This document shows positions 9,252 to 53,935 of a stretch of DNA of 64,000 nt, piece after piece; the first letter of the stretch is position 1; each line of letters opens with the position of its first letter. The notes under the pieces are model-generated. The model did no database searches, had not been told where the DNA came from, and saw only the letters and a program-made list of their open reading frames with translations. Source of the DNA: Sediminibacterium sp. (GTDB lineage Bacteria > Bacteroidota > Bacteroidia > Chitinophagales > Chitinophagaceae); assembly GCA_007280515.1 (NCBI GenBank), contig QYPL01000004.1, positions 62,001 through 126,000 on the forward strand. The letters run 5' to 3'. The position numbers and the translations under genes were made by a program.

Positions 9252-11657
9252 ATGAAAGATCTTCTATTTTATGCCGTTCCGGCGATGGGTATTGTAGGTT
9301 TATTGTATACACTATTGAAATTCAATTGGGTATCTAAACAAGATGCAGGTAATGACCGTATGAAAGAAATTAGCACTTACATTGCTGAAGGTGCAATGGC
9401 TTTCTTAAAAGCAGAGTGGAAAATCCTTGGCTATTTTGTGGTAATTGTGGCCCTATTATTAGGATTTATGGCTACTAAAAATGCAGAAAGTCATTGGAGT
9501 ATTGCTATCTCCTTTATCATTGGTGCTGTATTTAGTGCAACGGCTGGTTATATTGGAATGAAAGTAGCTACCAAAGCAAACGTAAGAACTGCTCAAGCAG
9601 CTAAAACAAGTTTAGCCCAAGCATTAAAAGTATCCTTTACTGGCGGATCTGTGATGGGCTTAGGCGTATCTGGATTAGCAGTATTGGGATTAGGTGGTTT
9701 GTTTTTAGTATTGAAGCAAATGTTCTATGTAAATGGCGACCCTTCTGAAATGCTAAGAACTATTGAAGTATTAACTGGATTTTCATTAGGTGCTGAATCA
9801 ATTGCTTTATTTGCACGTGTGGGTGGTGGAATCTATACAAAGGCTGCCGATGTCGGTGCTGACTTAGTAGGTAAAGTAGAAGCAGGTATTCCTGAAGATG
9901 ATCCTCGTAACCCTGCAACAATTGCAGACAACGTAGGAGACAATGTAGGTGATGTGGCTGGTATGGGTGCCGATTTATTCGGTTCTTATGTAGCCACTGT
10001 TTTAGCGACCATGGTATTAGGACAAGAAGTTACTGCAGTGGGTGGTGGAAAATTAGTAGATGCCTTTGGTGGTTTATCTCCTATTTTATTACCAATGATG
10101 ATTGCAGGTGTAGGAATATTATTATCTATTATTGGAACTTTCTTTGTAAGAATAAGTGAGAACGCTGGTTTAAATACGGCTACTGTTCAAAAAGCTTTGA
10201 ACATGGGTAACTATGGTTCAATGATTTTAACAGCCATTGCTTGTTATTTTTTAGTGGGTTATATTCTTCCTGAAACAATGTCACTTCGTGGTATTGAATT
10301 TACAAGAAATGGTGTCATTGGTGCAATAGCGGTTGGTTTAATCGTAGGTACTTTAATGAGTATCATTACTGAATATTATACGGCAATGGGTAAGCGTCCA
10401 GTAATGAGTATTATTAAACAATCAAGCACTGGACATGCAACCAATATTATTGGTGGTTTAGCGGTTGGTATGGAATCTACTTTCATGCCTATTATTGTTT
10501 TAGCGGCTGGTATTTTTGGTGCATCTTATTGCGCAGGTTTATATGGAGTAGCGATTGCTGCTGCTGGTATGATGGCAACAACTGCCATGCAATTAGCCAT
10601 TGATGCATTCGGTCCAATCGCCGATAACGCTGGTGGTATTGCGGAGATGAGTGAACTACCTGCTGAAGTGCGTGAGAAGACAGATATTTTAGATGCAGTG
10701 GGAAACACAACTGCTGCAAGCGGTAAAGGTTTTGCAATTGCTTCTGCTGCATTAACTTCATTAGCATTGTTTGCCGCCTTCGTAGGTGTAGCCATGCCAA
10801 ACAATCAACATATTGATATTTATAAAGCAGATGTATTAGCTGCTTTATTTGTAGGTGGAATGATTCCATTTATATTCTCTTCATTAGCTATTCGCGCTGT
10901 GGGTGAAGCGGCCATGGCCATGGTAGAAGAAGTGCGTCGTCAGTTCCGTACCATTCCAGGTATTATGGAAGGTACAGGAAAGCCTGAATATGAAAAATGT
11001 GTGGCAATTTCTACAGAAGCATCCCTTAAAAAAATGATGTTGCCTGGTGCTATCACCATCATCTCTCCTATCTTAATTGGATTTACAATGGGTCCTGAAG
11101 CCTTAGGTGGTTTCTTGGCTGGTGCAACTGTGAGTGGAGTGTTAATGGGTATTTTCCAAAACAATGCAGGTGGTGCTTGGGATAACGCAAAAAAATCTTT
11201 TGAAAAAGGTGTTGAAATAAATGGTGAGATGTTCTATAAAAAATCTGAACCACATAAGGCTTCTGTAACAGGAGATACGGTGGGAGATCCTTTTAAAGAC
11301 ACTTCTGGTCCTTCAATGAATATCTTAATTAAATTAATGTCAATTGTATCATTGGTTATTGCGCCTAGTTTAGCGCAATTACACCCAACTAAAGCAATGG
11401 AGACTAAATCTCAAACTGTTGAAATTTCAGTTATTAATACTGATACTGCAGCAGGTGCTAAAGTCATAAACGATACAACACATACTGTTACTATTACTGC
11501 GAATACTAAAACATTAATACAAGCTTTACAAGAAGAAGGTATTGCTCCAGTAGACAATGTTAAAATTCAAATTAACGATGGTAAGATTACTGTGAATGGT
11601 AAGGCCTTAACCGCGGAGCAGAATGCTAAGTTCTCTTCTTATCTTAAGAAAGACTAG
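9252..11657 (+). CDS. hppA: Membrane-bound, K+-dependent-type ion-pumping pyrophosphatase with periplasmic C-terminal extension
   Basis: ADVGADLVGKVEAGIPEDDPRNPATIADNVGDNVGD; GNTTAASGKGFAI; about 80-residue soluble tail after the last TM. Confidence 0.95.
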   Translation: MKDLLFYAVPAMGIVGLLYTLLKFNWVSKQDAGNDRMKEISTYIAEGAMAFLKAEWKILGYFVVIVALLLGFMATKNAESHWSIAISFIIGAVFSATAGYIGMKVATKANVRTAQAAKTSLAQALKVSFTGGSVMGLGVSGLAVLGLGGLFLVLKQMFYVNGDPSEMLRTIEVLTGFSLGAESIALFARVGGGIYTKAADVGADLVGKVEAGIPEDDPRNPATIADNVGDNVGDVAGMGADLFGSYVATVLATMVLGQEVTAVGGGKLVDAFGGLSPILLPMMIAGVGILLSIIGTFFVRISENAGLNTATVQKALNMGNYGSMILTAIACYFLVGYILPETMSLRGIEFTRNGVIGAIAVGLIVGTLMSIITEYYTAMGKRPVMSIIKQSSTGHATNIIGGLAVGMESTFMPIIVLAAGIFGASYCAGLYGVAIAAAGMMATTAMQLAIDAFGPIADNAGGIAEMSELPAEVREKTDILDAVGNTTAASGKGFAIASAALTSLALFAAFVGVAMPNNQHIDIYKADVLAALFVGGMIPFIFSSLAIRAVGEAAMAMVEEVRRQFRTIPGIMEGTGKPEYEKCVAISTEASLKKMMLPGAITIISPILIGFTMGPEALGGFLAGATVSGVLMGIFQNNAGGAWDNAKKSFEKGVEINGEMFYKKSEPHKASVTGDTVGDPFKDTSGPSMNILIKLMSIVSLVIAPSLAQLHPTKAMETKSQTVEISVINTDTAAGAKVINDTTHTVTITANTKTLIQALQEEGIAPVDNVKIQINDGKITVNGKALTAEQNAKFSSYLKKD

Positions 11658-11722
11658 TTTTTGATATAACTTATTGAGTATTAGTTATTGCTCTTTTAAC
11701 AGAGTCAGTTTTATAAAAAATT

Positions 11723-45104: not shown

Positions 45105-46202
45105 ATGGCTTTACAGGCAGGGATTGTGGGATTACCCAATGTAGGAAAATCGACCTTATTTAATGCAGTTAGTAATAGTGCAAAAGCACAGGCAAGTAAT
45201 TACAGATTCTGTACCATTGAACCCAATGTAGGTTTAGTGGATGTACCTGATAATAGATTGCAACAATTGGCTGATTTAATTATTCCCAATAAAATTGTCC
45301 CTACTCAATTAGAAATAGTAGACATTGCTGGTTTAGTAAAAGGGGCAAGTAAGGGCGAAGGTTTAGGTAATAAATTCTTAGCCAATATTAGAGAAGTGAG
45401 TGCCGTGATACATGTGATCAGATGTTTTGAAGATGAAAATGTATTAAGAGAAGAAGGTGCTATTAACCCTATTGCCGATAAAGAAATTATTGAAACTGAA
45501 TTACAGTTAAAAGATTTAGATAGCGTAGATAGGAAAATTCAACGCTGCGAGAAAATGGCTAAAACCGATCCTAAGGCTAAAGTGGAATTAGAAGTTTTAC
45601 AAAAATGTAAAATACACTTAGAGCAAGGAAAAAGTATTCGTTCATTGGATTTGTCTAAAGAAGATAAACTAGCTATTGCAGATAGTTTTTTATTAACTGA
45701 AAAACCGGTTATGTATGTAGCCAATGTGGATGAGGCTTCCATGCATACAGGAAATAAGTTCTCAGCCATGTTGGTTGAAATGGCCAAAGCAGATGGTGCG
45801 GAAGTAATTGTAATGTGTAATAATATTGAATCGCAGATTGCAGAACTCGAAGACCCTGCAGATAGAGCGGTATTTATGGATGAATATAAAATGACTGAAC
45901 CTGCTCTAAACCGTTTAATTCAGTCGGCTTATAAATTATTAAACTTGGAAACTTATTTTACAGCAGGGGTGCAAGAGGTACGCGCTTGGACTGTTGGCAA
46001 AGGCTGGAAAGCTCCACAAGCTGCTAGTGTCATTCACACCGATTTTGAAAAAGGTTTTATTAAAGCAGAAGTAATTGCTTTTGATGATTTTATTAAATTC
46101 AAAAGTGAAGCCGCTTGTAGAGAAAATGGGAAATTAAGAATTGAAGGAAAAGAATATATTGTGAAAGATGGAGATGTGATGCATTTCAGATTTAACGTGT
46201 AA
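45105..46202 (+). CDS. ychF: Redox-regulated GTPase/ATPase YchF
   Basis: MALQAGIVGLPNVGKSTLFNAVSNS; DIAGLVKGASKGEGLGNKFLANIRE. Confidence 0.97.
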   Translation: MALQAGIVGLPNVGKSTLFNAVSNSAKAQASNYRFCTIEPNVGLVDVPDNRLQQLADLIIPNKIVPTQLEIVDIAGLVKGASKGEGLGNKFLANIREVSAVIHVIRCFEDENVLREEGAINPIADKEIIETELQLKDLDSVDRKIQRCEKMAKTDPKAKVELEVLQKCKIHLEQGKSIRSLDLSKEDKLAIADSFLLTEKPVMYVANVDEASMHTGNKFSAMLVEMAKADGAEVIVMCNNIESQIAELEDPADRAVFMDEYKMTEPALNRLIQSAYKLLNLETYFTAGVQEVRAWTVGKGWKAPQAASVIHTDFEKGFIKAEVIAFDDFIKFKSEAACRENGKLRIEGKEYIVKDGDVMHFRFNV

Positions 46203-46247: not shown

Positions 46248-47057
46248 ATGAATAAACAAGCCTCTATATTATTGGTTTTATTTACGACTGCCTTCTTCGC
46301 ATGTAATACGGATAATAATGATGTGAATAATGAAAATGCCATACCTGCCCCTACTGCTATTTCTTACGAAGTCGTAAAGGTTTACCCTCATGATACAAGT
46401 TCTTATACACAAGGTTTAGAATGGTCTGGCAATAAATTATTAGAAAGTACAGGACTTGAAGGAAAAAGTTTTTTGCAAATGCTTGATTCCAATATGAAGC
46501 TAGTAGGTAGTAAAGTAAAATTAGACAAAGAATATTTTGGAGAAGGCAGTACTCTTTTTCAAGATAAAATTTATCAACTTACTTGGAAAAGTCATAAAGT
46601 TTTTGTTTATGATGCCAAAACATTCAAAAAGATAAACGAGTTATACTGGCCCTATGAAGGTTGGGGACTCACACATAACGATACCTCCTTAATTGTTTCT
46701 ACTGGCGAAAGCAATATCTATTTTGTAGATCCCCTACATTTTGCCATACAGAAAACATTGGGTGTCTTTAATAACTATGGTTATTTGAGTAATATAAACG
46801 AACTAGAATATGTGAATGGTCAACTATTTGCGAATATCTATGGTCGTAACGAAGTAGTTGTAATTGATATAGTTAGTGGGCAAGTAAAAAGCAGTATCGA
46901 TTTTACGAATATACTTTCTCAAGCGGGTGTAAAATATAATCCTTTAAGTATTGATGCTGGCTATGTACTCAATGGCATTGCTTATCAGCCTAATAAAAAA
47001 ACTTTCTTTGTAACAGGAAAATGCTGGCCTGTTTTGGTGGAAATTCGGTTGCGTTAG
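46248..47057 (+). CDS. Glutaminyl-peptide cyclotransferase lipoprotein
   Basis: Lipobox FFACNTD; YPHDTSSYTQGLEW; TWKSHKVFVYDAKTF; LNGIAYQPNKKTFFVTGKCWPVLVEI. Confidence 0.93.
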   Translation: MNKQASILLVLFTTAFFACNTDNNDVNNENAIPAPTAISYEVVKVYPHDTSSYTQGLEWSGNKLLESTGLEGKSFLQMLDSNMKLVGSKVKLDKEYFGEGSTLFQDKIYQLTWKSHKVFVYDAKTFKKINELYWPYEGWGLTHNDTSLIVSTGESNIYFVDPLHFAIQKTLGVFNNYGYLSNINELEYVNGQLFANIYGRNEVVVIDIVSGQVKSSIDFTNILSQAGVKYNPLSIDAGYVLNGIAYQPNKKTFFVTGKCWPVLVEIRLR

Positions 47058-47971
47058 AAATTTTGCTCTATTTTTTTTATTTCATAAATAATAGAGCTTC
47101 CTTTGTCTGCATTGCGTAAAGCAGTTAAATTGGAAATACAGCCAATGAAAAAAGCGCGCAACATTCCTAGCATTCCAGATTCTTTATATTTTTCACTTAG
47201 CAGGCTTACATAAAAGCTATCGAACCACATGGGCAGCTTTTGCACAATACTCATTTTATGTTTTTTGGCTAAATAATGCATCGACAAAGGAGAGAAATGA
47301 TATAAATGTCTTGGTACATCATAGGCAGCCCAGTATTTTTTATAAAAACCTGCATCATAGCTTGTGTAATTCGGTACAGCAATGACAAGTCGACCATTTG
47401 GTTTCAATAATCTATGAAATATCTTCATATACTCATTTAAATCATGTACATGTTCTAATACATGCCATAAAGTAATCACTTCAAAACTAGCGCTGTCTAA
47501 ATCATTTAGTTTTTCGATGGGTAGTAACTGAATATTATAATTTTCAAGTGCTTTATTTCTACTAGATTCATTGGGTTCTAAAGCAGTCACTTTCCAGCCT
47601 TTTTTAGACATTGAATGAGCAAATGCTCCAGTACCAGCGCCTACTTCAAGTAATTGACCCTTATGGCCTGTAAATAGAGATTGTACCCAATTCGTCTTCT
47701 GTGTAAGTGTAATATTTCTTACTTTATGATAGATTTGATTTACCAAGCCTTCTTTTGAATCGGTATGTGATATATAAGATGGGAAATTATAATAAGGTGT
47801 AATGGCTTCTTTACTTGGTGCTGGATCGGTATATTCTAATGTACAATGGGAACATTGAATAATTTGAAAATCTTCCCCTGTAAGTGAGTAATCCTTGGTA
47901 TACAGTAATGTTGAAATGTCTTCTTTATTACAAATGGGACAAGGTGAAAATTGTTTATTATTTTCAAGCAT
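47054..47971 (-). CDS. Class I SAM-dependent methyltransferase with N-terminal Cys motif
   Basis: CPICNKEDISTLLYTKDYSLTGEDFQIIQCSHC; LLEVGAGTGAFAHSM; WHVLEHVHDLNEYM. Confidence 0.9.
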   Translation of the reverse strand: MLENNKQFSPCPICNKEDISTLLYTKDYSLTGEDFQIIQCSHCTLEYTDPAPSKEAITPYYNFPSYISHTDSKEGLVNQIYHKVRNITLTQKTNWVQSLFTGHKGQLLEVGAGTGAFAHSMSKKGWKVTALEPNESSRNKALENYNIQLLPIEKLNDLDSASFEVITLWHVLEHVHDLNEYMKIFHRLLKPNGRLVIAVPNYTSYDAGFYKKYWAAYDVPRHLYHFSPLSMHYLAKKHKMSIVQKLPMWFDSFYVSLLSEKYKESGMLGMLRAFFIGCISNLTALRNADKGSSIIYEIKKIEQNF

Positions 47972-47973
47972 AT

Positions 47974-48456
47974 TTAAAAAGATTTAAATACTATAGCAGC
48001 TATGGCTATGATGGATAAAACAAGCGCTATCCATTGCCATTGAATAGATTTTTGTTTTTCCAATTCTTCATTTGCATTAATGGGACTAATGGTAATGTCT
48101 TTGTAATAATGGTTTGATGTAAAATTACTTACCCACGTATACTCGTTATTATTTTTTTCTACACTTCCTAAATTCCCAATAGATAAACTTGTCTCTTTCG
48201 CTTCAAAACTATTTTGTAAAAATTGGTCAAATTGAATATTTGCTTGTTCGTTAGAAATAGATAAAGCTTCTGACAAATAGTTATAAAAATGGGAGTTGGG
48301 TTTCTTTTTATCAGTTGAAAATAAAATAGTTACTTCGGGTGCATGTAAGGTATCTCCTATCCAACTTGCTGGCTTTTTACTCAAATGTAGTGTACCAACA
48401 TTAGTAAGCACTAATTCATTGTTTTGTATAAAATATTGTTCAAGAATTTTTTCCAT
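47974..48456 (-). CDS. HU-like (CCDC81-type) domain protein with C-terminal TM
   Basis: VLTNVGTLHLSKKPASWIGDTLHAPEVTILFSTDKKKPNSHFYNYLSEALSISNEQANIQFDQFL, then TM WQWIALVLSIIAIAAIVF. Confidence 0.6.
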   Translation of the reverse strand: MEKILEQYFIQNNELVLTNVGTLHLSKKPASWIGDTLHAPEVTILFSTDKKKPNSHFYNYLSEALSISNEQANIQFDQFLQNSFEAKETSLSIGNLGSVEKNNNEYTWVSNFTSNHYYKDITISPINANEELEKQKSIQWQWIALVLSIIAIAAIVFKSF

Positions 48457-48458
48457 AG

Positions 48459-50369
48459 TTATTTATGAAACGAATATACGATACCAGCAATTAATTGTAC
48501 TCCTAAAGAGGGATATTCTGCCCAACGTTGATACTTTTTATCTAATAAGTTCTCCCCTTTTGCCCAGGCCTTCAAGTGCGTGGTTAATTGATAATTAAAG
48601 GAGGCGTTTAAAACCAGCGTGTTCTTTAAATCATAAGCATTATTGGCATCATTTTGGAAGGAAGCGCCTGTCCAATATTGCATACCCCCATCTATTGACC
48701 ATTTTTTTCTAGGAAACCAACTAAGCGCTCCATTAAGATTCAAAGGTAAAATCCCCCAAGCATTAGTATTTTCCTTGATGGAATTAAATTGAATATACTT
48801 AGCATTTGCTTTTAGAATAAATTGGTTGCTTATTTGATAACGCATGGAAGAAACAAATTCTAAAGTAACGGCTCTATTTTCAAATATAGGTTGGTATTGT
48901 AAACCCAAAAATTGCGATTTAGCTACATTATTGATTCTGTTAAAAAAAGGTATATTATGATAATCATTTAAAGATAACCCAAAACTATATTGTAATGATT
49001 TAGATGCATTAATATAAAGATCTAATGCCTTTTTCTCTTGGGTAGTAATTTTTAAAATAGTGGGTGCAGCTAACCATGGATTTATCATAGATAGACTAGC
49101 ATAATTATTATTGGTTAAAATAGTTTGCCAATTAGCCACTAATAAATAATTAGTATCATTTAATTTTTTACTAAACTGTACAAGGGGAAATAAAGCAAAT
49201 TCTTTAGTAGTGAAACTAGGGTTAACACCTACTTTAATACTAGCATTCCATTTATTTAGTTCAATAGAGGGTTGAATTATAAATATTGAATTAGTCTGAT
49301 TCGCATAGTTGGTATGTGAATACTTATTATAATTATAACTAAAATCTAAATTAAATTTACCAGTACCTTTTAATGTAAAGCTTATTGGGTTGAACATTTC
49401 TACCCATATATTATTGGTAGAGGCAAGCCCTTTAAAATTTTCAAATTTAATAGTGGGATTAAATAGTTTATTTAAGACCTTATTACTAGAATTTTCATTC
49501 ACCCATTTAATAGAAGTTCCAAACAGCGTAAAGGGTTGTGCGTAGTCTGCTAAGGATAAACTACTGTTATCTGGTACTAAACCAAACCTGTAGCGCTGCG
49601 TATTTTGGTAAAATGCTTCTGTTTGAATAGCATTATTTTGATTCATTTTTATATTACCAATATATGCAAAATTTTTATGGGTAAACTGCTGAAGATATTG
49701 AATACCATTAGATGTTTCAAAACTAGCCTCAAAGGCATGTGAATGCTTATTTTCATCTACTGCATTATAGCTAGCTTCAAAAAACTGATTGTTATAATTA
49801 CCGAATCCAACTTTTAAATTAGTGGTATTAACTGGGAAAGAAGTCTCATTTTCTTTGTAAGATCTTGGGATTAAAGAGATAGGTCTATATTGAAAGCTTA
49901 AATTTTGAGTGGGTACTTGATAATTTAGCGATGTAAAAGTTGTATCGGTTTGATTCGCCGCTTTTGTGAAATTTAATTTTGCAATATTTTTAAGTTGTGG
50001 CTTAAAGGCTGAAATAATACTCACTTCTTTTTCAGGAATAGTATCGAGCTTGGGTGTTGCTATATTCTTGGTTGTTAAAAGTTTAGATAAATCGGCGGTT
50101 TCAATATTTAAATTAGCTGCATTTTTTCTACGCAGGACTTTATTGTTCATTTTATAGTTCGCAGTAATTTTACTTTTACTAACATTTTTTTTCTTACTTA
50201 TCTTTTTACTTTTATTTGCCTTAGCAGATTTCTTTTTTTTATTAGTAGCTACTTTTTTACCGGCAGTAGTAATATTTGCCTTTTTCTTATTTGTTTGCTG
50301 GGCATTACCCACTGTTAAGAAACATACAATACAAATGAATAAAAAACTATATTTTAAAAAATACTTCAT
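48459..50369 (-). CDS. TonB-receptor-like outer-membrane beta-barrel with Lys-rich N-terminus
   Basis: Signal peptide; NLLDKKYQRWAEYPSLGVQLIAGIVYSF receptor-type C-terminus. Confidence 0.75.
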   Translation of the reverse strand: MKYFLKYSFLFICIVCFLTVGNAQQTNKKKANITTAGKKVATNKKKKSAKANKSKKISKKKNVSKSKITANYKMNNKVLRRKNAANLNIETADLSKLLTTKNIATPKLDTIPEKEVSIISAFKPQLKNIAKLNFTKAANQTDTTFTSLNYQVPTQNLSFQYRPISLIPRSYKENETSFPVNTTNLKVGFGNYNNQFFEASYNAVDENKHSHAFEASFETSNGIQYLQQFTHKNFAYIGNIKMNQNNAIQTEAFYQNTQRYRFGLVPDNSSLSLADYAQPFTLFGTSIKWVNENSSNKVLNKLFNPTIKFENFKGLASTNNIWVEMFNPISFTLKGTGKFNLDFSYNYNKYSHTNYANQTNSIFIIQPSIELNKWNASIKVGVNPSFTTKEFALFPLVQFSKKLNDTNYLLVANWQTILTNNNYASLSMINPWLAAPTILKITTQEKKALDLYINASKSLQYSFGLSLNDYHNIPFFNRINNVAKSQFLGLQYQPIFENRAVTLEFVSSMRYQISNQFILKANAKYIQFNSIKENTNAWGILPLNLNGALSWFPRKKWSIDGGMQYWTGASFQNDANNAYDLKNTLVLNASFNYQLTTHLKAWAKGENLLDKKYQRWAEYPSLGVQLIAGIVYSFHK

Positions 50370-50375
50370 AATGGG

Positions 50376-53300
50376 TTATTTAATTGTTGGTGTTTCTGTA
50401 AGTTCTTTCAACTTTTGAGCAGCAACAATTTTAAGTGGTTCAATAGTGGCATTATCGGCCACACTCTTATAGGTAGCGATGGCATTAAATGTATCCTTCT
50501 GTGCAACATAAATATCTCCTAATAAAATATATGTTTTAGTGACCCAGAATTCATAAGAAGCTTGTTTTTTAATAATATCAAAAGCAGTTTTCTCCGCCAA
50601 GCTTAATTTATTTTGTAATAAATATAAATTGGCTAATTGGTAATGGGCTTCCGCTGTAATAACACTAGACCCGGTTTTAATTACTTTATTTAATATTTGA
50701 ACTGCTGCACTAGTATCTCCCGCTATTAATTTCTGATGATAAATGGTCATATTGGCCATTTCAATATCATCCATGGCGCTATTTTTATCGGCTATAATTT
50801 GTAGAGCAATATTATTTGCATCTAACCATTTCCCAGCTTTATATTGGCATCTTAATAGACCTTTATTGGCTTCAGTACTATTTTCTTTCTGTGTAGCAAT
50901 TTGTAATAATATAGAAAAATATTTTTCAGCTAAATCGTAATTTTGATAATTAAAATAATTTAATCGGGCGGCAATAAGTGCAGCTCTTTCAGCATAGGCA
51001 TTGGGTGCTATATCTGCTATTTTTGAAAAATAAACCAAGGCAGTATCATAGGCTTGTTTTGAATAAGCTATTTCTGCCATTAAATGGGTGGCTTCTAGAC
51101 TATACTTGCCATTGGGATATTTTTGTAAATAACTGCCAAAGCCTATGGCCGATTCTGTATATTTTTTTTGCTCATACTTAATTATGGATGCCCTAAATAT
51201 TAAAGAATCTTGTTCATTGACTGTCAAAGGATGTCCATAATCGTTCATAAAATGAACGTATAATTCTGGGGTTTGATCCTCTATAAAAATATTACGAATA
51301 TATTCAATGGCATTTTCACTTTCAATAGATTTAGGATAGGTTGCATATAATTCTTTGAAAGTATTAAGTGCCATTTGATTTTTATCCAAATTAAAATATA
51401 CAATACCTAATTTATAATAGGCTTGAGGATAAAATTGTATCGCTGATTTATCTAAGCTAATTTTAGTTAAAGGCGCAATAGCATCTTGAAACTTTTCTTG
51501 GCTTACATAAGTATCTGCCAATTCCATTCTTGCATCATTTATATAAGTTGAACTTGAAAAAATTGTTTCGTAACCAGTAAGCATTTTAATTTTCTCGTTC
51601 ACCTTCCCTATCCCACCTAATATAGTAGCTTTTTGTAAAAAAGCATAGTCAGCATAAGTCCAAGATAAATCTATGACATGCTGATAAGTTGCTAAGGCGT
51701 CATTCATTTTCTTTAACATCATTTGACAATCTGCAACTCTTACATAGGCATCTTGTTGAAAATGATCTAATGCTATACCTGGATCTATACTTGATATCTC
51801 TTTAAACTGTAAGAATGCTTTTTGATATGCTCCATTTTTTAAGTAACAATAACCTAATATATAACGGGCATTAGTAACATTGACTTCTCCATTATTTATA
51901 GGATCCAACATGTATTTCTGTAAATAGCTAATCGCATCGGTAACGAGGCCCATCTTATAACTTATTTCACCTAACCAAAAATGAGTAGCTGATAAATAAT
52001 TGCCATTATAAGGGGCATTTCTTAACTGATTCAATAATCCATAAGCTTTTTCTACTTCCCCGTCATTGATATAATTACAGGATAATCCATATAAAATGGC
52101 CGAATATATTTTTAATAATTCAAGCGATGGAGTTTCAATTAAAACATAAGCCTCCAATGCCTGTTTGAAATTATTATTATAAGCTAAGGCAGTAATCCAT
52201 AAAGATTTTGATTCTGTAAAGTAAATAGACTGAGGATAGTTTTCCATAAACTTGTCTAAAACAGTGACCGCAATACTGTACTCTTTTAGTTCTACTAGTA
52301 GCTTTCCATAATTGAATAATGAAATTTCTTTTTGTGCTAAATTGATACTTTTAGAAGCACAGAGCATAAAAGCATTTTTAGCTCCCTTTTTATCATTTAC
52401 TTTTAAATAAGCGGTGCCCAATAAATACATACTATTTTGACCTAAGGAATCGTTCACATTGGCTAATTTCTTAAACCCTGCAATAGACTTTTCCCATTGT
52501 TGATCCTGGAAATAACAAAAAGAAAGTTGGTATAAATCTTGTACTTCCACATTGTCTTGTGCAGCCACATATTTTGCTAAGTAAGGAACCGCTTTTTGAT
52601 ATTGTTTTTTCTCAAATAATAAATGCCCCATTAACTGCTGTAATTGTAGGTTATAATACTGACCTTCTAATTGCAAAGCTTTTTCGCAATTGATCATGGC
52701 AGCGTCAATATCTCCATTGAAATAGTAGATCTGACTAATATAAAAGGGAGTTAAACTTGCATAAGCATCATTATTACCGGCAATTTCAAAACAAGCTAAA
52801 GCCAAGGGAAACTCCTTTTTTTGTAGTGCAATAAAACCCGCATAGTAATTGGCATCGGTATAAAAGTTCGATTGCTTCAGCTGTCTAATACTATTTAATA
52901 AACTAGTAGCCTTATCCCAATTACCTAATTTAAAATATAAATAGCCTTGTAGGAATTTCATGGTAATCAGTTCTTCATTGCTCAAATCGGCAATACTAAC
53001 TTTATCAAAAGCATTCAAGGCCTCCTGGGTATTTTGTTTTTTAACATAATAGTCCCCTAAAAAAAAGTTCATTCTAGCAGTATAAATCTTGTTAGTAGAT
53101 ACTTTTAAATATTGAATGGCTAAATTTTCAGCGGCAGGTTTTTGTAGAACAAGAGACAAGTAAATGTAGTAGTAATTAATATCCTCTCCTATATTATCTT
53201 TTCTTATATTTTCTTGATTTGACTTAAAATGATAAGCCGATTGTATGTATTGAAAAGCAGCTACTGTGTCCTTTTGATGTAGTGCATTGATCCCTTTTTG

Positions 53301-53408
53301 GAAAACGGGGTCTAAAGGACTTGCATTTTGGCTATATTGAGCTTTTGCATGAAATACAAAAATCATTAATATAAAAAGACCCCAGATTCTACTAGTCAAT
53401 GATAACAT
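50376..53408 (-). CDS. Large periplasmic TPR protein (1010 aa)
   Basis: Signal peptide followed by many TPR units across the full length. Confidence 0.85.
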   Translation of the reverse strand: MLSLTSRIWGLFILMIFVFHAKAQYSQNASPLDPVFQKGINALHQKDTVAAFQYIQSAYHFKSNQENIRKDNIGEDINYYYIYLSLVLQKPAAENLAIQYLKVSTNKIYTARMNFFLGDYYVKKQNTQEALNAFDKVSIADLSNEELITMKFLQGYLYFKLGNWDKATSLLNSIRQLKQSNFYTDANYYAGFIALQKKEFPLALACFEIAGNNDAYASLTPFYISQIYYFNGDIDAAMINCEKALQLEGQYYNLQLQQLMGHLLFEKKQYQKAVPYLAKYVAAQDNVEVQDLYQLSFCYFQDQQWEKSIAGFKKLANVNDSLGQNSMYLLGTAYLKVNDKKGAKNAFMLCASKSINLAQKEISLFNYGKLLVELKEYSIAVTVLDKFMENYPQSIYFTESKSLWITALAYNNNFKQALEAYVLIETPSLELLKIYSAILYGLSCNYINDGEVEKAYGLLNQLRNAPYNGNYLSATHFWLGEISYKMGLVTDAISYLQKYMLDPINNGEVNVTNARYILGYCYLKNGAYQKAFLQFKEISSIDPGIALDHFQQDAYVRVADCQMMLKKMNDALATYQHVIDLSWTYADYAFLQKATILGGIGKVNEKIKMLTGYETIFSSSTYINDARMELADTYVSQEKFQDAIAPLTKISLDKSAIQFYPQAYYKLGIVYFNLDKNQMALNTFKELYATYPKSIESENAIEYIRNIFIEDQTPELYVHFMNDYGHPLTVNEQDSLIFRASIIKYEQKKYTESAIGFGSYLQKYPNGKYSLEATHLMAEIAYSKQAYDTALVYFSKIADIAPNAYAERAALIAARLNYFNYQNYDLAEKYFSILLQIATQKENSTEANKGLLRCQYKAGKWLDANNIALQIIADKNSAMDDIEMANMTIYHQKLIAGDTSAAVQILNKVIKTGSSVITAEAHYQLANLYLLQNKLSLAEKTAFDIIKKQASYEFWVTKTYILLGDIYVAQKDTFNAIATYKSVADNATIEPLKIVAAQKLKELTETPTIK

Positions 53409-53524
53409 GCTGCTTGTTTATTAATTACCTAAAATTACGCTCTACTTATAAAACGAAGCTTATTTACCCCTTATTGTGGAAAAACAGAATTCATTCGTAA
53501 ATTTGTCAACAATAACAATAAAAC

Positions 53525-53935
53525 ATGTACGAATTCAACTCCCAGGTAAGAGTAAGGTATGCCGAAGCCGATCCTATGAATGTGGTTTATTATGGCAATT
53601 ATGCCCAATATTTTGAAGTAGGCAGAGTAGAAAGCTTAAGAAACCTAGGCATAAGCTACAAAGGCATTGAGGATATGGGCATTATGCTACCTGTAGTGGA
53701 ATTAAATATTAAGTATTTGAGACCTGCCAAATACGACGACTTGTTGACTATTAAAAGCCAGATCAAGGAAATACCGATAGATCATAGAATTGTATTTGAT
53801 CAGGAAATTTATAATGAGGAAGGGAAATTATTAACCATTGGTAAAGTGAAGCTTTATTTTATGGACAGTAAACTGGGAAAAAGAGCTAGTATGCCAGCTA
53901 CTATGCTAGAAAAACTAAGCGCTTATTTTAGATAA
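53525..53935 (+). CDS. YbgC-like acyl-CoA thioesterase
   Basis: VRYAEADPMNVVYYGNYAQYFEVGRVESLR hotdog motif. Confidence 0.9.
   Translation: MYEFNSQVRVRYAEADPMNVVYYGNYAQYFEVGRVESLRNLGISYKGIEDMGIMLPVVELNIKYLRPAKYDDLLTIKSQIKEIPIDHRIVFDQEIYNEEGKLLTIGKVKLYFMDSKLGKRASMPATMLEKLSAYFR

Follow-up and report, generated by a model that had tools for sequence, protein, structure and literature searches.

A conserved TPR-barrel-HU operon of Bacteroidota as a candidate Tol-Pal-like envelope system

The Tol-Pal system consists of YbgC-TolQ-TolR-TolA-TolB-Pal-CpoB. Its proton-powered arm acts on outer-membrane partners at the septum (PMC12204202). A 2025 survey could identify no tol-pal loci in Bacteroidetes, leaving unanswered what stabilizes the outer membrane during division (PMC12204202). 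PorE, a proposed tether between the outer membrane and the wall of Bacteroidetes, has been put forward as a stand-in for the missing Tol-Pal system (PMC12204202).

Here we describe a locus from Sediminibacterium sp., found in a stretch of 64,000 nucleotides (hereafter, the window), whose genes for a TPR protein, an outer-membrane barrel and an HU-CCDC81 protein belong to an operon that elsewhere in the phylum continues into motor genes. Like Tol-Pal, this system combines a putative proton-channel pair and a putative TonB_C-like arm with a periplasmic TPR protein and division-gene neighbours, and in Chitinophagaceae it is accompanied by a YbgC/FadM-type thioesterase gene. Unlike Tol-Pal, its operon has the barrel and an HU-SPOR protein instead of TolB and Pal, its TPR protein is ~1000 amino acids long, and its motor proteins fall below the curated TolQ and TolR cut-offs. 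The barrel fold and motor architecture are shared with TonB-ExbBD and its transporters of the BtuB and FepA type; however, the barrel lacks a plug, TPR and HU-SPOR subunits are added, and the operon ExbB stands apart from the main Ton ExbB clade. As in prokaryotic HU-CCDC81 proteins, the third gene of relatives matches both defining domains (Pfam PF18174 and PF18175), joined to a transmembrane helix and SPOR, whereas the window copy is without SPOR. These families were reportedly defined by Burroughs et al. in 2017, and part of the HU-CCDC81/TPR/barrel/motor neighbourhood may already have been noted there. The present system is offered, like PorE and in the same phylum, as a stand-in for Tol-Pal, but PorE is one multidomain lipoprotein with no motor of its own, whereas the operon brings a motor. 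Within the open-licence literature searched the system is uncharacterized, and its novelty is claimed for that scope.

The four-gene unit and its products

The first-pass annotation had described a tight unit of four minus-strand genes, and the four ORFs are present as described (Table 1). The spacing it gave, 6, 4 and 2 bp, holds for the first and last gaps, while the middle one measures 2 bp. At the far end, the stop of the methyltransferase gene and the end of the convergent glutamine cyclotransferase gene share 4 bp. The divergent spacer contains a match to TTG-N21-TAnnTTTG only toward the thioesterase strand, and a search for structured RNA in the region found none. Records L232-L235 and L240, of Sediminibacterium type, share the gene order and nearly the same spacing, and the unit is therefore no chance arrangement of one genome.

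Table 1. Features of the four-gene unit and its flanks, in window positions.
Feature	Position	Strand	Remark
YchF gene	45105-46202		convergent flank of the four-gene unit
Glutamine cyclotransferase gene	46248-47057		convergent flank of the four-gene unit
Class I SAM methyltransferase gene	47054..47971	-	305 aa; ORF coordinates
HU-CCDC81 tandem protein gene	47974..48456	-	160 aa; ORF coordinates
Outer-membrane barrel gene	48459..50369	-	636 aa; ORF coordinates
TPR protein gene	50376..53408	-	1010 aa; ORF coordinates
Divergent spacer, 116 bp	53409..53524	.	the one intergenic space upstream of the unit that could hold a promoter
YbgC/FadM-type acyl-CoA thioesterase gene	53525..53935	+	divergent context; TIGR00051 above cut-off

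The flanks also recur. YchF and glutamine cyclotransferase hold the same position beside the unit in many family loci. The YbgC/FadM-type thioesterase often adjoins the unit in this family, being labelled in 24 of the loci sampled, and the window copy scores below the cut-off of the tol-pal-specific model TIGR02799. A gene for a small DoxX-like membrane protein (~135 aa; named from sequence reading) often lies between the thioesterase and TPR genes in L088, L091, L034 and other family loci.

The N-terminus of the TPR protein is signal-like, the sequence matches TPR families, and the AF2 model (pLDDT 88.7) is helical throughout, with ~54 helices; the protein is accordingly predicted to be an exported periplasmic solenoid. 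Its nearest named relatives, at 87-88% identity, come from Sediminibacterium and Chitinophagaceae MAGs, and a fold search returned generic scaffolds only, such as SKI3, CTR9 and IFT-A. The protein exceeds the cut-off of TIGR02795 (CpoB/YbgF) as seven repeat stretches within the 1010-residue solenoid. Orthology to CpoB/YbgF is not accepted, as it is repeat stretches of a long solenoid that match this 119-position model. Identity with PorW/SprE (46.8 bits against an NCBIfam equivalog cut-off of 250) or with BamD (36.9 against 81.4 bits) was likewise rejected.

The second gene had been read as a plug-less, receptor-type barrel, and its AF2 model bears this out. A signal peptide is followed by a disordered tail (residues ~23-179) and, from residue 181, by a barrel of the TonB-receptor type, for which Foldseek returns BtuB (E 1.1e-16) as well as PfeA and FepA. 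An N-terminal plug domain was sought in the window barrel; Pfam gives no match, and residues 22-179 are modelled as disordered. The region at the plug position is thus disordered and, in the window lineage, very rich in lysine. The earlier description of the whole barrel as Lys-rich applies to this N-terminal tail (29 K/R against 5 D/E in residues 23-130) and not to the rest of the protein. Full-length homologues are found through the class and the phylum. A barrel profile matches 54 of 54 near-complete family genomes, nearly always as a single copy, the match in G323 being the C-terminus of a receptor only.

The membrane-anchored HU-like protein is indeed a shortened HU-CCDC81 protein, with one transmembrane helix at its extreme C-terminus (hydropathy peak at 142). 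The gene looks like an orphan in single-sequence searches, and its homology rests on profile comparison: hhalign aligns residues 6-111 with the HU-SPOR profile at 96.1% (E 3.6e-9). Barrel-adjacent counterparts in relatives score above the Pfam cut-offs for HU-CCDC81_bac_1 and _2 and carry a transmembrane helix, followed in most of those scanned by a C-terminal SPOR domain; PDB matches of the HU-SPOR profile include FtsN and DedD. The window protein stops just past its helix, and a search for SPOR domains throughout the window genome (1.82 Mb in 30 contigs, ~90% complete) found none. The third gene is therefore normally an HU-CCDC81 tandem with a transmembrane helix and SPOR, of which the window copy has lost the SPOR. 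A match to EssA (17 bits, below cut-off) was taken as chance. In L034 (G021), two genes of the HU-SPOR type lie within 11 kb of each other, at 647-1558 and 10691-11668.

The methyltransferase matches the Methyltransf_23 family, and the CxxC pairs reported at its N-terminus are real, with Cys 11, 14, 40 and 43 conserved in 48 of 49 orthologues; the N-terminus is probably zinc-ribbon-like. Of the 40 family loci, 17 have the methyltransferase gene immediately behind the HU gene, as does one order locus but no other of the 120 loci read, and because of this family-limited distribution it was rejected as a core partner. It is an accessory addition of Chitinophagaceae, present in about half of the family loci. 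A defence role for the unit was also rejected, PADLOC giving only a generic methyltransferase-domain match.

The neighbourhood across the phylum and its motor genes

The neighbourhood was read outward from the barrel in a total of 120 loci, to which the family and the order contributed 40 each, the class 16 and the remainder of the phylum 24. The loci were picked by barrel matches, and the frequencies are thus given a barrel and not given a genome; ORF calls were mechanical, so that some gaps and starts are approximate, and lineage names outside the named records are inferred. In 109 of the 120 loci the gene immediately upstream of the barrel is that of the TPR protein, and in 86 the one immediately downstream is that of HU(-SPOR). 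The core of TPR, barrel and HU is hence kept far beyond the genus, than which it is far older, and the earlier suggestion of an undescribed envelope complex is well supported for these three proteins.

Some lineages depart from this order. In Flavobacteriaceae, TPR and barrel are kept beside a divergent FtsE-type gene, and the HU-SPOR gene is unlinked, adjoining genes named, from sequence reading and not by family search, as a thioesterase and a dprA-like gene. In Bacteroidales-type loci (L269-L274, L277, L310), gyrB follows the TPR-barrel pair. In 17 of the 80 family and order loci, the TPR gene is preceded by one for a TonB receptor; in 13 of the 40 order loci (e.g. L036, L045, L046, L049 and L060) the gene immediately upstream encodes a receptor of ~760 aa whose N-terminal domain is carboxypeptidase-like.

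Outside the order, the HU-SPOR gene is usually followed by genes of the ExbB/TolQ, ExbD/TolR and TonB/TolA-like types and often by folC. The run TPR-barrel-HU/SPOR-ExbB-ExbD-TonB is consecutive in ten of the loci read, with gaps mostly below 100 bp, and the same six genes are found in named genomes of Pedobacter, Nubsella, Desertivirga and Pararcticibacter. In family f43, the run extends from the barrel to TonB with no recognized TPR gene adjoining, and ftsK lies upstream in several loci. The motor proteins score above the Pfam cut-offs for MotA_ExbB and ExbD. TolQ is the best NCBIfam match of the operon ExbB, at 65.6-86 bits against a cut-off of 221, and the operon ExbD reaches 33-52 bits against the 127.3 set for TolR. 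TonB-like proteins diverge fast. The one that adjoins ExbD in most intact operons scores 23.5 bits against 24.6 for TonB_C in L128 and has no Pfam match in L112.

Two ExbB genes are present in the window genome. On contig C4, one copy forms part of a canonical Ton cluster, ExbB-ExbD-ExbD-TonB, whereas the second (C30:24227) is followed by an ExbD that starts like the operon ExbD of L112. In a tree of 68 sequences, this second ExbB falls within a group (support 100/98) with ExbBs from the operons of Sphingobacteriales-type loci. A separate clade (100/100) holds 14 of 17 Ton-labelled sequences, among them that of the window genome; the three others sit on a long branch elsewhere. A relative of the TonB-like protein is encoded on C14 (E 4.8e-9 in the genome search and 1.9e-16 in the locus), directly before folC. 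Since this TonB-folC pair is the tail end of an intact operon, the arrangement reads as a broken operon whose parts were kept, apparently in three pieces: the four-gene unit, ExbB-ExbD and TonB-like-folC.

The second ExbB is present in 16 of 16 barrel-bearing family genomes tested. Two genomes, G323 (99% complete) and G392 (83% complete), have no true barrel match and only the Ton ExbB. The chance of this 16 versus 2 split is 1 in 153 by simple counting, which ignores kinship and the incompleteness of G392. G323, a 3.3 Mb genome of the same family without barrel or operon-type ExbB, represents a probable natural loss of the system. Order-level genomes without a barrel match are unusable as losses, as the operon-type ExbB is still there and the single-protein query is weak.

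Candidate functions of the system

That the TPR protein, barrel, HU protein and motor exist as a conserved system is very probable. Their anatomy would place them on one line, from the cytoplasm (HU) through the inner membrane (transmembrane helix, ExbBD), the wall (SPOR) and the periplasm (TPR solenoid, TonB-like arm) to the outer membrane (barrel). The explanation we consider best, and hold with evenly divided confidence, is a machine driven by the proton-motive force that ties the outer membrane, the wall and the inner membrane together through a dedicated ExbB-ExbD-TonB motor. The TPR, barrel and HU genes would supply its periplasmic, outer-membrane and inner-membrane parts, and we infer a physical complex through which force is transferred. 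The proton-driven motor, TolQ-TolR-TolA-like, would sit in the inner membrane, with a TonB/TolA-like arm that would span the periplasm and pull on the TPR solenoid, on the disordered tail of the plug-less barrel, or on both. The HU-SPOR protein would place the machine at denuded septal peptidoglycan, and its cytoplasmic HU tandem may link the machine to the nucleoid or divisome. The outer membrane would thereby stay attached to the wall and constrict with it, a Tol-Pal-like job. In Sediminibacterium-type Chitinophagaceae, the machine would have had its operon split, its SPOR lost and the methyltransferase added.

This trans-envelope machine is favoured by the adjacency of TPR and barrel and of barrel and HU, the six-gene runs and the SPOR of the third gene; by the detached motor genes that the window genome keeps and the grouping of its second ExbB; by the joint presence and absence of barrel and second ExbB; and by the division-gene neighbours of f43 and Flavobacteriaceae. 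The unlinked HU-SPOR gene of Flavobacteriaceae weakens it, and a septal-wall role cannot be essential in the window lineage, where SPOR is gone. For a Tol-Pal-like function in particular, the prospects are slightly less than even. The reported lack of tol-pal loci in Bacteroidetes favours it (PMC12204202), and the motor scores and the missing operon TolB and Pal speak against it. Neither TolB nor Pal was recognized among the neighbour genes whose products were read, and the system is for this reason not filed as Tol-Pal. Its outright equivalence to Tol-Pal in Bacteroidota is proposed more tentatively: the barrel and giant TPR protein would replace TolB-Pal and HU-SPOR would couple septal wall, inner membrane and nucleoid, with the operon split in Chitinophagaceae and SPOR dropped in part of that family.

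The same genes could serve a dedicated TonB-type transporter, in which the TPR protein would gate the plug-less barrel channel and its own ExbBD-TonB would drive the import or the export of a single class of substrate, be it glycans, lipids, lipoproteins or proteins. The barrel has the fold of TonB-dependent transporters, the third motor gene resembles TonB, and the receptor genes in front of the TPR gene, including those with the carboxypeptidase-like domain, fit transport equally well. A barrel without a plug, however, is at odds with such a transporter, as is its near-universal single copy, a pattern foreign to substrate-specific receptors; nor would the transporter explain SPOR, HU and the division-gene neighbours, making transport rather unlikely. 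Chance or co-regulation might instead have assembled independent modules, namely a TPR-barrel outer-membrane unit, an HU-SPOR division or nucleoid protein and ExbBD-TonB as a general second Ton system. While TPR and barrel are hardly ever parted, the HU-SPOR gene of Flavobacteriaceae is unlinked, and so are ExbBD and TonB in Chitinophagaceae, as modules would be. Yet distant lineages of the phylum share the full gene order, and the detached ExbB groups with the operon ExbBs in the tree and is lacking in the genomes that lack the barrel, which renders this account improbable. Very improbable is an accessory role in T9SS, in gliding or in the assembly of outer-membrane proteins, for which the TPR protein would be a scaffold like PorW/SprE or BamD. 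This reading draws on the sub-threshold matches to both models and on sprA, present in 22 of 22 operon-bearing genomes tested, which also makes T9SS co-occurrence uninformative as a discriminating test; but such scores are expected of any TPR solenoid, and no T9SS or BAM gene was recognized in the neighbourhoods read.

The SPOR that usually accompanies the HU gene and the TolQ/R/A-type motor that follows it change what the putative four-gene operon is. If the proposed trans-envelope machine is true, it would be an example of a Tol/Ton-type motor in the service of a plug-less barrel. Cultured genera carry the operon as a defined set of genes, in full in Pedobacter and as its TPR-barrel core in Flavobacterium, and it represents a testable candidate for the Tol-Pal system that Bacteroidota reportedly lack.
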